Below, in pieces: positions 2,910-14,412 of a stretch of DNA of 46,053 nt. Each line of letters begins with the position of its first letter. Position 1 is the stretch's first letter. Source of the stretch: a virus; the IMG/VR virus record IMGVR_UViG_3300034522_000071, positions 1 through 46,053 of that record; one strand, written 5' to 3'. The notes below the pieces were generated by a model. The model worked only from the letters and a program-made list of their open reading frames with translations, was not told where the DNA came from and searched no databases. A program made the position numbers and the translations under genes.

Positions 2910-3116
2910 TTAGGCTGCCTTGTGTTGTGACCACCCGGTAGGATTGTTCAGCCAGGTGTTGATTTCTGATGCACGCCAGCCAACACGGCCGGGAGAGAGG
3001 CGTACTTGCCTAGGGAAGCGGCCAGCTTTGATCTCCCGCCACAGGGTCGCATGAGACAGCGTAGTTACCTCCAGCACCTGCTCCTCCCGCAGGTAGCGTT
3101 CCAACTGAATCGTCAT
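2910..3116 (-). CDS. AlpA-family excisionase/regulator
   Basis: This 68-residue protein has the AlpA/MerR-like winged-helix layout: ERYLREEQVLEVTTLSHATLWREIKAGRFPRQVRLSPGRVGWRASEINTW, the usual order of an HTH followed by the R-GRVGWRxSEI-W signature of the family (quoted here only as separate motifs along residues 6-55). AlpA-type proteins act as excisionases or as activators of integrase genes in prophages. Its start overlaps the stop of the upstream gene by 4 bases, so it is the last gene of the leftward early operon, at the prophage edge where an excisionase would be expected. No integrase gene is adjacent. Confidence 0.8.
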   Translation of the reverse strand: MTIQLERYLREEQVLEVTTLSHATLWREIKAGRFPRQVRLSPGRVGWRASEINTWLNNPTGWSQHKAA

Positions 3117-4228: not shown

Positions 4229-5314
4229 TCATGCTGCACCACCGTGCTCTGTGGCCAGAGCAGCGTCGATATCGGCATGGTCTGCGAGGGCGTAGGCGTA
4301 GTAGATGGCCTGCGGTGCATCAGGCCACTCCCGGCGTAGAGTCTCGAAGTCGCCTTCGTTCCAGCAGCGCAGGAAACTCAGCGGCTCTTCGCGGTGGCCG
4401 TCGTGCAGCATGTAGTCGATTACTGCGTTGAAGGCTGCTTCCGCTCGGGGCACATCGGGTCCGGTGACCAGCTCGTGATCGAACGGCACCTTGAAGCCGG
4501 CCGCGTTGCGGTGGCCGCCGCCGCCGTACTGCTTGGCGATCTCGCCTACGTCCAGGCCATCGTTGCTGCTGCGCAGGGAGAAGTAGCGGTGCTCGGAGGT
4601 GTCCTGATAGCAGGCGGCGAAAGGTTCGCCCTGGGCCATCAGGTGGCCGGCGTCGCTGGAATGGATGTAGGGCATGTTCGCCACGGGCACATCATGGCCG
4701 GCGATGAGCATGCGGCGCTTGCTGCCGGCCACCAGCTCGGCCACGTCTTTGTGGTGCTTGCGCTCGATGGCGGTACCGGCAGCGATGGCGGCGCAGATCG
4801 GCTGCTGCATCAGCGCATCCCACATTTCGAAGTCATAGGGGTAGCTGAACAGGTTGGCCTGAATCTCGCGGGTGCCTTCCAGCTTGAAGCGCCAGAGGTC
4901 GCGGTCTTCGATGTGGTTGATCAGAGCGGGGCGTGGCTGGCCAGGGTTGAAGTAGTCCCAGGTCAGGCCAGCGCCAGAGCGCTCCATGTCGAAGACAGTG
5001 CCGACGCGCTGGGTGGAAGTGGCCCACTCGCGGAAGTTGGCAGGTGCTGGTTGCAGGCGTGCCAGTGCCTCGGCCGCTGTCTTGTGGTGGTCGATGATCA
5101 GGATCGAGCGCGCCTGGTGGCCGAGCAGGACCAGCAGCTCATAGGGGTAGGAGAAGTCCACGATGATGACGTCGCGGCCTTCAACGTCCGGCGCTGGGGT
5201 GCCGTAGTGGCCGGCGTGGAACTCGACGTTCTCGGCACCCAGCGCCTGGCGAACCACCCAGGCGGCACCGAAGCCATCGGCGCAATTGGCGTGATAGATG
5301 GAAAGCGTCTTCAT
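4229..5314 (-). CDS. DHH/DHHA1-family phosphoesterase
   Basis: This 361-residue protein has the DHH superfamily motifs in order: HANCADGFGA near residue 8 (motif I), IIVDFSYP near residue 50 (motif II), IIDHHKTA at residues 73-80 (the DHH signature), and a C-terminal GGGGHRNAAGF glycine-rich motif of the DHHA1 domain near residue 265. Relatives are Mn-dependent phosphodiesterases acting on short oligonucleotides (NrnA), cyclic dinucleotides or single-stranded DNA (RecJ). The length fits NrnA/GdpP-like enzymes without membrane domains. A role in nanoRNA clearance or cyclic-dinucleotide removal is possible but not shown by the sequence. It overlaps its upstream neighbour by 4 bases. Confidence 0.88.
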   Translation of the reverse strand: MKTLSIYHANCADGFGAAWVVRQALGAENVEFHAGHYGTPAPDVEGRDVIIVDFSYPYELLVLLGHQARSILIIDHHKTAAEALARLQPAPANFREWATSTQRVGTVFDMERSGAGLTWDYFNPGQPRPALINHIEDRDLWRFKLEGTREIQANLFSYPYDFEMWDALMQQPICAAIAAGTAIERKHHKDVAELVAGSKRRMLIAGHDVPVANMPYIHSSDAGHLMAQGEPFAACYQDTSEHRYFSLRSSNDGLDVGEIAKQYGGGGHRNAAGFKVPFDHELVTGPDVPRAEAAFNAVIDYMLHDGHREEPLSFLRCWNEGDFETLRREWPDAPQAIYYAYALADHADIDAALATEHGGAA

Positions 5315-5799
5315 GCTGCCTTCCCCTGTTCTGCGGTTTCAGAGGCGGGCAGGGTGGCCACCAGGCGGCGGTCCATGTCCTGGACCAGGCCCATCAGGTC
5401 GCGTGCGCGCACGGCAGAGTCGTTGGCCTGCAGGCCGGAGAAAGTGGCGACGGCCAGCTTCAGCATGGCGTTGACGTCGGCGAGGACCAGGCGATCGGCA
5501 ATACCGAACGGCGAGGCGCGGCGGGCATAGATGGCGATTCGCTCGTCGCAGTCCTGCATGATCGCTTCGAGCTGGTGGCCGTGCTCCATGCGGGCAGCGG
5601 CGGCCTGTTCCTGCAGGCGGGCGATGTCCTGGTTCAAGGCGGTGATGCGCTGGCCCTGTTCGAGCAGAGCGGCCTCGTAGCCTTGGTCATAGCCGTTGGA
5701 GTGGGCGGTACCGGCGGTGCGGCGGTAGTAGACGGCAAAGCCGATCAGGGCCAGCACCAGGCCGGCGATGATCAGGGTGAGCAGAGTGTTGGTTTGCAT
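5311..5799 (-). CDS. Membrane-anchored coiled-coil phage protein
   Basis: The 162-residue protein has one N-terminal transmembrane segment (LLTLIIAGLVLALIGFAVYY, residues 6-25), followed by a predicted coiled coil (GQRITALNQDIARLQEQAAAARMEH) and a helical C-terminal domain. The arrangement suggests a cytoplasmic domain tethered to the inner membrane. It shares a four-base overlap with the downstream DHH phosphoesterase gene, so the two are translationally coupled and may act together. GAGGA lies about 9 bases before the ATG, and a stem-loop with a CTCTGAC loop lies upstream of it. I recognise no family. Confidence 0.75.
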   Translation of the reverse strand: MQTNTLLTLIIAGLVLALIGFAVYYRRTAGTAHSNGYDQGYEAALLEQGQRITALNQDIARLQEQAAAARMEHGHQLEAIMQDCDERIAIYARRASPFGIADRLVLADVNAMLKLAVATFSGLQANDSAVRARDLMGLVQDMDRRLVATLPASETAEQGKAA

Positions 5800-5822
5800 G
5801 TGCTGTGTCCTCGTAGAGCCCG

Positions 5823-5852
5823 CCGCCGGGAATTGCTGTCAGAGTCCGGCGG
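5823..5852 (-). repeat. Stem-loop with CTCTGAC loop, intercistronic
   Basis: Read on the minus strand, a 7-bp perfect stem (CCGCCGG / CCGGCGG) encloses a loop that starts A-CTCTGAC. It lies in the 62-base gap between the PrtN-like gene and the membrane coiled-coil gene, about 20 bases upstream of the latter's SD. It shares its loop word with the five tandem hairpins at 8612-8888 and the hairpin at 7535-7571. Confidence 0.6.
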
Positions 5853-5861
5853 TGGGGTGGG

Positions 5862-6752: not shown

Positions 6753-7286
6753 TCAGGCGGCGAGGAGTTCTTCAGCGTGCGAGGCTAGGGATGCGTACAC
6801 ATCCCCGCGACTGCCTGAGCACACGCGGGTGTTCGAGCCCTTTCCGACGATGCCTGTTGCCTTGTTGCTGTCCGGCGAAAGGTGCACGGTGACGTGAAGG
6901 CATCCAGCGACAGTGGCTTGGCCGCCTGTGCGGGTTACGGTGCGCAGGGCGCGCTCGTCCAGCTCGGACAGGGTTTGAGGCACATGAGGTTCTTCGAGAG
7001 GGCGCGGCTCCACCTCGCGTGCGGATTCGACCTGACCGTTCGCAATCTCCTCGATGAAGTCGCGCAGGTGCAGGTGGTTAGCGCGGTCGCGGCGCTTGAG
7101 GGTGAGGCGGTCAGAGCGGCCGCCGATCTCGATAGCAATCAATGCGGAGGCATCGGTCAGCTCGACGCTGAAGTCGGCTCGCAAGGTCTGCTCGGGACGA
7201 GATAGCTCAACTGTCGCAGCGCCGCCAACCTGCAGCATGTGGTGCAGCAGTTCTTGGCGGGCCAGGGGAATTCGGTAAGCGCTCAT
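6753..7286 (-). CDS. Phage protein of unknown function
   Basis: This 177-residue protein is the second gene of the leftward early operon. Its ATG overlaps the stop of the first gene. The N-terminal half alternates strands and helices and contains an acidic segment (EVEPRPLEEPHVPQTLSELD), followed by a beta-rich tail. I recognise no family. A CTCTGACC word occurs inside its coding strand near 7107 but lies partly in a weak stem, so I do not count it with the stem-loop set. Confidence 0.7.
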   Translation of the reverse strand: MSAYRIPLARQELLHHMLQVGGAATVELSRPEQTLRADFSVELTDASALIAIEIGGRSDRLTLKRRDRANHLHLRDFIEEIANGQVESAREVEPRPLEEPHVPQTLSELDERALRTVTRTGGQATVAGCLHVTVHLSPDSNKATGIVGKGSNTRVCSGSRGDVYASLASHAEELLAA

Positions 7287-7534
7287 GCTGCGTCACCTCC
7301 GAACGGGCCGGTGGACTCATCAGCAACCTGGTAGCGGCGCGCCTGAGTGCTTGCCGGGAAGGGATCGGCGGCGCCAGTGGTGAAGTAGAAGGTGGGTTTG
7401 TGGAGCTGGGGCTTGCCGCCGTTGAGCACCACCAGCTGGCCGGTGGCCTGCTGTACGGCGCGCACTGCGTCAGGGTTGGTGGTGCAGGCCGGGTGCAGGA
7501 GCACCGGGCAGCGGGCGTGCTGTGTCGTTTGCAT
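7283..7534 (-). CDS. First gene of leftward operon, small phage protein
   Basis: I place the start at the ATG at 7534 (MQTTQHARCPVLLHP), giving 83 residues, rather than at an in-frame start further upstream at 7573. The downstream start has a GGAG about 8 bases before it, whereas the upstream one would lie inside the promoter region. The protein has no recognised domain. Its SD and initiation region are embedded in a strong stem-loop (7535-7571), so translation initiation may be controlled by RNA structure or a bound protein. Confidence 0.65.
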   Translation of the reverse strand: MQTTQHARCPVLLHPACTTNPDAVRAVQQATGQLVVLNGGKPQLHKPTFYFTTGAADPFPASTQARRYQVADESTGPFGGDAA

Positions 7535-7571
7535 GTCGCGTACTCCAGAGGTCAGAGAGTGGGTACGCGAC
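7535..7571 (-). repeat. Stem-loop with CTCTGACC loop abutting a start codon
   Basis: On the minus strand a perfect 9-bp stem (GTCGCGTAC / GTACGCGAC) encloses a further CCA/TGG pair with a bulged A, and a loop containing CTCTGACC (7557 to 7550). The 3' arm ends on the base immediately before the ATG at 7534, and the GGAG SD lies partly in the stem. If the promoter proposed at 7573-7602 is right, transcription starts near 7566, inside the 5' arm. The RNA stem would then be shorter than the DNA palindrome. Confidence 0.65.
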
Positions 7572-7572
7572 A

Positions 7573-7616
7573 AAAATACGACTATGAATTCATTCTAGTC
7601 AATACGTGTATGAATT
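7573..7616 (-). promoter_or_regulatory. Leftward early promoter and operator candidates
   Basis: On the minus strand TTGACT (7602-7597) and TATTTT (7578-7573) are separated by 18 bases, forming a plausible promoter for the operon starting at 7534. The spacer holds an approximate palindrome at 7580-7600, outer arms GACTA/TAGTC, centre ATGAATTCAT. A second related half-palindrome with GTATGAATTTTTA lies at 7608-7620. The GAATTC core recurs at the rightward promoter, which suggests that both are bound by the repressor. Confidence 0.55.
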
Positions 7617-8388: not shown

Positions 8389-8577
8389 ATGACTATTCAA
8401 CAGATGCTCGAAGCGCTCCTGGGAGCAGGGCTAAGTCAGCAGGAAATTGCGGGGCTGACAGGGGTTAGTCAGCCAACAATCTGCAGGGCACACCGAGGCG
8501 CTGAGGTTCTCTACAAAAGTGGCAAGCAAATCGAGCGGCTGTACCAGGAACGCCTGGGAGACAAGGCAGCTGCTTAA
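8389..8577 (+). CDS. Cro-like helix-turn-helix protein
   Basis: The 62-residue product from the ATG at 8389 (TIQQMLEALLGAGLSQQEIA, then GLTGVSQPTICRAHRGA) is almost entirely one HTH domain with a short C-terminal helix. An alternative TTG start at 8377 would add four residues. It lies divergent from the repressor and is the first gene of the rightward early transcript, the standard position of Cro. It would compete with the repressor for the operators at 8333-8365. A GC-rich hairpin (GGCCCC cgaa GGGGCC, 8585-8600) follows the stop codon. Confidence 0.82.
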   Translation: MTIQQMLEALLGAGLSQQEIAGLTGVSQPTICRAHRGAEVLYKSGKQIERLYQERLGDKAAA

Positions 8578-8611
8578 GGGTGCCGGCCCCCGAAGGGGCC
8601 AGCGGGGTGCT

Positions 8612-8888
8612 GCTCTGGACTCTGACCTCCAGAGCGGCGGGTGGCGCGGGACTCTGACCTCCCGCGCCTTGCCTGACGAGGCTCTGACCCCTCGGCAGGC
8701 GCACGACGCCTGATGCGGACACAGCACATGTGGGGAGCATCAGGTCGCCGTAGCCGGAATAGTAGGGGAAGCCCTGCTGGCTGGCTATGTCGTTAAACGG
8801 CGGCTTTCGGTAGTAACCCGCGCAGGGACTCTGACCCCTTGCGCGGTTTAGGCCCCGGGCGGTGCGTTCTCTGACTCGCGCCGCCCGG
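8612..8888 (+). repeat. Five tandem stem-loops with a shared CTCTGAC loop
   Basis: This is a non-coding stretch of 361 bases between the Cro-like and CII-like genes. It contains five hairpins with unrelated stems. (1) GCTCTGGA 8612-8619 / TCCAGAGC 8628-8635, loop CTCTGACC. (2) GGCGCGGGA 8643-8651 / TCCCGCGCC 8660-8668, loop CTCTGACC. (3) 8671-8681 / 8690-8700, 10 of 11 pairs, loop CTCTGACC. (4) CCGCGCAGGG 8818-8827 / CCTTGCGCGG 8837-8846 with one G-U, loop ACTCTGACC. (5) 8855-8866 / 8877-8888, 12 pairs with one G-U, loop TTCTCTGACT. Stem sequences differ while pairing and loop are kept, which points to selection on a folded RNA or cruciform. Between hairpins 3 and 4, 8701-8817 holds nothing that I recognise. 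Confidence 0.8.
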
Positions 8889-8938
8889 ATCAAGCACAGC
8901 ACGCTGCCGGCCCCGCCTGGGGCCGGCTTGGGGTAAGC

Positions 8939-9427
8939 ATGAGCCGACTTGACCTTTTGCCGGACGCTGGTCCGGTTCTCTCCATCCGCCAGGCGCTGTA
9001 CCGCGCCGGGCGCGACTACCGCGGCGGGGTTACTGGCCTCGCACTCGACCTGGGCATGGATCTGGATGCCCTGCAGAAGAAGCTGAAGTTCGACTTCGAG
9101 GCCCGCTGGCCCACGCCGGACGAGCTGGAAGAGATCATCGAAGCCACTCAAGACCCGCGTCTGTTGGATGCCCTGATGCGACCGGCCGGTGCGGTTTGGT
9201 ATCGCCCTGAGCCGGTTGCGGCTACCGCCGAAGCCCTGAAAGGGGTAGGGCTGTTGCTGCGGAAGGAAGGCGAGTTCGTTTACAGCCTGCACGAAGGGGC
9301 GGCGGACAATGTGTGGCAGCCCCACGAGGTGGCACTGCTCGAGCACCATGGCAATGAGGTTATCCGCGCTGTGCTCGGCATCATGGCCGGCGCCCGCGCC
9401 GCGATGGAGGGCCGCCAGGATGGATGA
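8939..9427 (+). CDS. CII-like phage regulatory protein (CP76 family)
   Basis: The 162-residue protein matches the CP76-type phage regulatory CII family in size and layout: an N-terminal segment (SIRQALYRAGRDYRGGVTGLA), a central LDALQKKLKF motif, and a helical C-terminal half with DELEEIIEATQDPRLLDAL. Such proteins in P2- and D3-type phages are HTH regulators acting in the lysis-lysogeny decision. The start has GGGG about 6 bases upstream, immediately after the stem-loop array, so the array forms the leader of this gene on the rightward transcript. Confidence 0.78.
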   Translation: MSRLDLLPDAGPVLSIRQALYRAGRDYRGGVTGLALDLGMDLDALQKKLKFDFEARWPTPDELEEIIEATQDPRLLDALMRPAGAVWYRPEPVAATAEALKGVGLLLRKEGEFVYSLHEGAADNVWQPHEVALLEHHGNEVIRAVLGIMAGARAAMEGRQDG

Positions 9428-13588: not shown

Positions 13589-13610
13589 TTACTGCAGGGG
13601 AAGGCACAGC

Positions 13611-14255
13611 ATGATCGAAGCAATCGAAACCGTGATGAGGCACTGGGGCGAGGCTGTGCGCTGCGGCGTGCCCAGCGGTGGCCTGGGTAGCCCGGCCGGG
13701 ACTCTGGTGGAGTGGAAGGGCTGCCCGCCGCGCACTGGGGCCGCAGGCTCGCGGATGCTGCTGGCAGGGGCTGGGCCTGATTACCTGGTGAGCGAGGTGA
13801 GTGCAGCGCTGGCTGCGGTTGAGCGGACCGAGGGAGGCGAGCTGCTGCGCCGCCTGGCGTATCGCCGGTACACCTTCGCGCCAGCGCTGACGGTGGAGGA
13901 GCAGGTGCGCGACCTCGATCTGGGCCGGGGTGATGCCGGGCGCCGGGCGTACACGCGCCTGGTGGGGCGCCTACATCAGCTGGTTGAGGCCGAGTTAAAA
14001 GCGCGTCTTGCGCGGACAGAAAGCCAGCAGCGTGAATCAAAGCGGGAGGGTGAGCGGATGCGTAAGGCCTCATTGCGGCAAGCCGCCAGAGCGCACCGTG
14101 GGCGTGGGCTTGAGTTCGAAGAGGCCCAGGGCGGGCAGGGAGCGATCGCCGCTCACAAGGCGCGAAAGGCTTCGCGCTGTGACCGTTCGTCGGGCGACTC
14201 GGCGCCAGTCGGCGCCGTAGCGCCCCGGCAAGCCCCCGTCAGGAACAACCGTTAA
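13611..14255 (+). CDS. Phage protein in the antiterminator Q position
   Basis: I start this gene at the ATG at 13611 (MIEAIETVMRHWGEAVRCG), preceded by GGGGAAGG, giving 214 residues. The upstream in-frame extension to 13518 overlaps the preceding gene and is ignored. The protein is rich in Arg and contains EEQVRDLDLGRGDAGRRAY and a long basic helix (ARLARTESQQRESKREGERM). It lies directly upstream of a strong terminator and the lysis/packaging operon, the place where lambdoid phages encode the late antiterminator Q. Sequence similarity to known Q families is not evident to me, so the role is inferred from position. Confidence 0.65.
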   Translation: MIEAIETVMRHWGEAVRCGVPSGGLGSPAGTLVEWKGCPPRTGAAGSRMLLAGAGPDYLVSEVSAALAAVERTEGGELLRRLAYRRYTFAPALTVEEQVRDLDLGRGDAGRRAYTRLVGRLHQLVEAELKARLARTESQQRESKREGERMRKASLRQAARAHRGRGLEFEEAQGGQGAIAAHKARKASRCDRSSGDSAPVGAVAPRQAPVRNNR

Positions 14256-14381
14256 TAGGGGGTTTTCGGTTTGTCCTTTCGCCGGTACAAAGTCCCCACG
14301 ATTCGATAGGTCCGCCTACCGAGCAACCGAGCGCACAGTGCTGTGCCGACAAGCCCCAGGCCACCCCGCCTGGGCACCTGC

Positions 14382-14412
14382 AAAACCCCGCTCCGGCGGG
14401 GTTTTCTTTTTC
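14382..14412 (+). terminator. Rho-independent terminator before late operon
   Basis: AAAACCCCGC (14382-14391), loop TCCG, GCGGGGTTTT (14396-14405), then CTTTTTC. It stands between the Q-position gene and the first holin gene, as the lambda tR' terminator does. It predicts an antitermination-controlled late transcript. Confidence 0.88.

Follow-up and report, generated by a model that had tools for sequence, protein, structure and literature searches.

Five hairpins that display the loop word CTCTGAC lie at 8609-8888 of a 46,053-base virus record (the whole stretch analysed, called the window below), between a cro-like gene and cII. They are the largest copy of an element that recurs in the early operons of related Pseudomonas phages. 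Fold and loop are under selection and the sequence of the stems is free, a conclusion strongly supported by covariation among relatives. The word, CUCUNAC in its general form, is accompanied by a second word, CACAGCAC, reads in the direction of transcription in both divergent early operons, and contains one base, N, that differs between phages and changes in concert at the sites of a single phage.

The hairpin array in the cII leader

The leader and its neighbouring genes are arranged as follows.

8389..8577, + strand: Cro-like HTH gene
8609..8638, + strand: HP1, 11-bp stem, loop CTCTGACC at 8620-8627
8643..8668, + strand: HP2, 9-bp stem, loop CTCTGACC at 8652-8659 (covariance model E 5e-7)
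8671..8700, + strand: HP3, stem of 5+5 bp with one mismatch, loop CTCTGACC at 8682-8689
8703..8752, + strand: hairpin with CACAGCAC in its loop (8720-8727), followed at once by ATG 8728-8730
8818..8846, + strand: HP4, 10-bp stem, loop ACTCTGACC, word at 8829-8835
8855..8888, + strand: HP5, 12-bp stem, loop TTCTCTGACT, word at 8869-8875
8895..8902, + strand: second CACAGCAC of the leader
8939..9427, + strand: CII-like gene (PF06892, Phage_CP76)

A preliminary description of this DNA had reported five hairpins with these loops in the leader between the Cro-like and CII-like genes, and folding and shuffling confirm it. The 301-nt array segment folds at -169.2 kcal/mol (z = -5.7), a value that no shuffle reached, and CTCTGAC within 8-bp stems (at most one mismatch) occurs five times in the window versus a maximum of one over 3000 dinucleotide shuffles. 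The accompanying statement that the stems are unrelated holds for HP3 and HP5, which share one base in nine, and fails for HP1, HP2 and HP4, whose arms have 5-6 of nine bases in common. HP4, HP5 and the further CACAGCAC look like a second copy of a module made of HP1-HP3 and CACAGCAC. The ATG at 8728-8730, directly 3' of the first CACAGCAC, opens a reading frame of 22 codons. Among the relatives, L014 carries two complete hairpin pairs, at about 2250-2290 and 2855-2895, with a small gene inserted between them, which suggests duplication of the module there.

Relatives and covariation of the stems

Scans with the CII protein yielded 80 viral loci and 43 from bacteria; all but one of the bacterial loci are named Pseudomonas, the exception being an unplaced gammaproteobacterial bin. 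One to five CUCUNAC-loop hairpins are present in nearly all of about 115 distinct related cII leaders from Pseudomonas phages, so that the earlier expectation of many phages with the same loop on different stems agrees with what the relatives contain. Two loop styles occur: one has 8 nt (CUCUNACC) and the other is longer (CCUCUCACCACAAGAAUC). In the short-loop loci (n=30), 73 of 83 leader words sit in strict stems and the remaining ten are mostly near misses, compared with one of 46 words elsewhere, on the opposite strand.

Covariation was measured on 24 verified distinct hairpins; they had been picked as hairpins, which biases upward the share of paired cells (91%, versus 58% when shuffled) and affects covariation much less. 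Cells altered on both sides number 76 versus 26 in the shuffled set, two-sided change is found in nine of nine pairs, and the covariation score is 0.88 versus 0.26 shuffled and at most 0.24 slid. The original reading of a selected loop and fold on free stems is thus borne out. The opposite pattern, in which stems would hold their sequence and lose their pairing or the loop word would vanish, did not occur: the stems keep pairing and change sequence, and the word is retained. The asymmetry between G-T and A-C pairs (16 versus 10) does not distinguish RNA from DNA.

In DNA-pattern scans of viral contigs, nearly every GC-rich hairpin stands upstream of a CII gene. Two loci, L128 and L130, have a CII homologue and no recognisable word in a leader hairpin. 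In unrelated viral contigs, for example L191, L211, L181 and L168, CTCTCACCACAAGAG lies within 6-7 bp stems of differing sequence that are not near CII and may be coding. Most relatives also possess a hairpin ACCGTAAA-GGAG-TTTACGGT (in L017 at about 2970-3000) with the Shine-Dalgarno sequence of cII in its loop; the window is without it and has GCCGGCCCC/GGGGCCGGC in its place.

A covariance-model check, proposed at the outset, was run as a blind search of 299 Pseudomonas genomes and matched eight: three from the training set, three new prophages and two sharing one hairpin without CII nearby. The hairpins stand upstream of CII in all three untrained prophages, one of which holds a five-hairpin array in which every word is CTCTGAC, left site included. 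Against 369 genomes of the class, the sole match was the query genome itself, a Pseudomonas; the model detects the short-loop style only, and absence elsewhere is not proof. No family of Rfam 15 came near its gathering score in the window leader, nor did any reach it in 11 related loci, and a phrase-based literature search found no such Pseudomonas element.

The left operon and the second word

Strong model matches in whole phage contigs are confined to the cII leader, and a weak match in the left operon revealed that the element extends further. The relevant features of the window are the following.

7573..7602, - strand: pL-like promoter, TTGACT-18-TATTTT (similar TTGAC..TAAT blocks in relatives)
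7534..7572, - strand: left site 1, hairpin with which the presumed pL transcript starts (5' end), CTCTGAC 7557-7551 in the loop
7517..7524, - strand: CACAGCAC within codons 4-6 of the first left gene
7283-7534, - strand: first left gene (MQTTQH, phrog_13491)
5819..5856, - strand: left site 2, hairpin with CTCTGAC at 5844-5838
5800..5807, - strand: CACAGCAC adjoining the ATG of gene 5311-5799

CTCTGAC in this operon usually lies 20-40 nt upstream of CACAGCAC, and the Shine-Dalgarno sequence GGAG is within the 3' arm of the site 1 hairpin. The first left leader of the relatives begins right after the pL-like promoter and shows the word on a GCGTAC/GTACGC hairpin; the gene opens ATG CAA ACG ACA CAG CAC. 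Its fourth codon indicates that the RNA word is kept, not the protein: Thr-4 is ACA in 51 of 58 genes, compared with 28 of 366 Thr codons (8%) elsewhere in these genes (p 2e-49, kinship ignored), and Ala-4 is GCA in 25 of 25.

Across 18 phages, a scan of site geometry collected 65 sites with both words. A stem of at least 5 bp surrounds word 1 in 50 of them, and 15 have no clear stem; persistence of the word at the stemless sites fits a word that is exposed single-stranded. At 38 of the 65 sites CACAGCAC abuts an ATG, and at 13 it occupies codons 4-6 of the first left gene. Words in the cII leader are 70-330 nt from the cII start.

A base that differs between phages

The window and its close kin have G at N, most phages have C and one has A; other spellings are CCUCUAC in another group and CUCACC and CUUACC in two Stutzerimonas phages. 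The class of the right operon equals that of the left operon in 83 of 85 distinct loci, versus a permutation maximum of 67 (10,000 permutations, kinship ignored), and in the two discordant loci an extra word on the right is the only difference. In a set of 19 phages, nearly all sites of a given phage share one spelling. Some phages carry an odd word, as at the third site of L009, at one site of L024 and in L114. On the CII tree the N class has switched on several occasions. Linked sites are inherited together, which explains some of the left/right concordance, and not this repeated joint change. The stems differ within a phage while N is common to the divergent operons; this is most simply explained by one trans-acting reader serving both, and we infer that something phage-specific reads N.

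The preliminary description was therefore right about the array in the cII leader, the shared CTCTGAC loop and the hairpin fold, and too narrow in several respects: the word also occurs outside that leader, in the left operon, it has CACAGCAC as a companion (the 65 two-word sites), 15 of those sites show no clear stem, and one base varies between phages and is concerted within one phage.

Candidate readers and the late leader

Residues tracking N were sought in CII, the TraR-like protein, CI, the left gene and the KilAC-like protein, and none stands out clearly. Two other candidates, phrog_8889 and the primase, are unlikely readers, because the versions in a G phage and a C phage are 97% identical. 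The first left gene (phrog_13491) is universal and its product is not basic (KR 6, DE 5); the AlphaFold model of the product is of low confidence (pLDDT 57), and a search for a solved structural relative found none. An antisense RNA with an exact 7-nt complement was also considered and rejected: the L009 contig has no spare CTCTCAC, and the L020 contig has only one in 40 kb, which is not conserved. A tRNA anticodon-loop mimic does not fit the long-loop relatives. The three kinds of role first offered for the array fared differently, in that the small-RNA sponge is weakened by the failure to find a phage RNA with an exact 7-nt complement, while the other two, nut-like sites and a set of translational operators, remain in contention.

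Ahead of the lysis genes, the window contains a stretch that we tentatively connect with the second word.

13608-14255, + strand: gene phrog_4300, just before the late leader, weakly PA0613-family-like (below cut-off), possibly a late regulator
14284-14405, + strand: late leader with a promoter-like block, GTGCTGTG, a hairpin and a strong intrinsic terminator, followed by the holin gene
14338..14345, + strand: GTGCTGTG of the presumed late leader, the complement of CACAGCAC and its tentative partner
14382-14405: intrinsic terminator ending the presumed late leader

GTGCTGTG and the terminator occur in 15 of 16 late leaders, in phages located by the promoter block alone. The energies of seed duplexes between the late leader and CACAGCAC sites are not exceptional in this GC-rich genome, and we treat a late-leader RNA as partner of CACAGCAC as a tentative lead. 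The closest known counterpart is the pR'-tR' leader RNA of phage lambda, 6S. The stretch at 14284-14405, a candidate 6S-like RNA, resembles it in that a promoter-like block and a terminator precede the lysis genes, and differs in its conserved GTGCTGTG, complementary to an early word.

Comparison with known systems

Put sites of phage HK022 are pairs of hairpins on early transcripts that RNA polymerase reads directly. The Pseudomonas element is likewise made of hairpins on early phage transcripts, but put has two hairpins one nucleotide apart, compared with one to five per Pseudomonas leader at variable spacing, and put is not known to have a loop base that varies between phages. The nearest known kind is the SAS/ESAS of cluster K mycobacteriophages, in which a short word recurs beside many start codons, an inverted repeat precedes roughly half of its copies, the repeat consensus varies with the subcluster and the function is unexplained (PMC3203893, PMC12699233). 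The Pseudomonas element shares the start-associated repeated word, the upstream inverted repeat and the consensus specific to a phage group. It is not a member, because the words and the logic differ: the repeat arms of ESAS hold the consensus, whereas in the Pseudomonas element it is the loop word that stays constant, on varying stems. Upstream of starts in the window, the SAS consensus GGGATAGGAGCCC has one match with two mismatches versus 1.3 expected, which is chance.

Interpretation and rival explanations

We tentatively favour, at a little less than an even chance, a two-word post-transcriptional operator regulon on early transcripts that is read by a phage-specific trans-acting factor. 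The array would be the largest copy of a repeated RNA operator marking the early transcripts of this phage family. Within the 5' untranslated region, word 1 (CUCUNAC) would be displayed single-stranded, most often by the loop of a strong hairpin, with word 2 (CACAGCAC) downstream in the ribosome-binding window. A phage-specific factor, probably an RNA-binding protein of the phage given that no exact antisense RNA was found, would read word 1 and control the early messages as a single regulon, through their translation or their stability, and the extra hairpins before cII could provide higher occupancy at the lysogeny-decision gene. Speculatively, word 2 may be the contact for a step that blocks ribosomes, possibly by a late-leader RNA bearing GUGCUGUG. 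Post-transcriptional action is favoured because the sites hug translation starts, the word occurs without a stem and CACAGCAC lies in the ribosome-binding window. Several observations weigh on the other side: any intergenic element in a phage will be near a start, the words of the cII leader are distant from the cII start (70-330 nt), no residue of neighbouring proteins clearly tracks N, seed-site duplex energies are not exceptional, and odd words exist in L009 (third site), L024 (one site) and L114. A more specific version, an early-to-late switch in which a phage protein reads CUCUNAC with its drifting base and the late-leader GUGCUGUG pairs with CACAGCAC and shuts early genes off, is improbable as a whole.

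In the main rival, the sites are nut-like: an N-like antiterminator peculiar to the phage would load at these boxB-type hairpins and modify RNA polymerase while it makes the pL and pR transcripts. We regard it as unlikely, though it deserves to be taken seriously because the sites lie where lambda has nutL (right behind the pL-like promoter) and nutR (in the interval from cro to cII) and the loop core CUNACC is similar to boxB of phage 21. Phage-specific loops are typical of N/boxB pairs, as they are here. The core C-UNAC-C matches the phage 21 hexaloop CUAACC (PDB 1NYB, UMAC fold, PMC12550061), L024 carries CUCUAACC itself, and three nut sites in one phage have a precedent in mEp021 (PMC11893012). 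Against this, the Pseudomonas loop has 8 nt with a CU extension, up to five hairpins stand in one leader, 15 of 65 sites have no stem, and two to five sites lie at individual gene starts. A boxA-like GCTCTT is within 80 nt upstream at one of 65 sites, the gene in the position of N encodes a protein that is not basic (KR 6, DE 5) with no N-like protein recognised, and intrinsic terminators are not in excess in the early region. Nor does CUCUNAC itself serve as boxA, since N is never U at CACAGCAC-adjacent sites and an upstream boxA is missing.

The remaining explanations each meet part of the evidence. Words at gene boundaries, with the cro and CI modules between sites swapped, would suit conserved DNA linkers for modular recombination between phages, or DNA-binding sites; such linkers should look the same from phage to phage, yet N is constant inside a phage and changes from one phage to another, the words point along transcription in each of the two operons, and the stems retain pairing despite sequence change, all of which makes this reading very unlikely. 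Several exposed loops per leader could form a sponge that titrates a small RNA or an RNA-binding protein of the host (GGUNAGAG-type or Rsm/Hfq type). That is highly improbable, as phages of one host group would share any such partner, yet even close relatives have different N, and the words also occur singly at gene starts. A purely cis-acting structure for cII alone, an attenuator or leader-peptide device, draws on the 22-codon frame after the first CACAGCAC of the window and on the hairpin that sequesters the Shine-Dalgarno sequence just before cII in relatives, but the small frame is not conserved and the same words with the same N precede unrelated genes of the other operon, so we give it little credence.

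If the operator regulon is correct, it would supply a layer of early control so far missing for a large family of temperate Pseudomonas phages. A single loop base that varies between phages and is common to divergent operons amounts to a particularly clean natural experiment, and a single-base swap could find the reader. The element would also offer a genetically tractable relative of the unexplained SAS/ESAS sites of mycobacteriophages.
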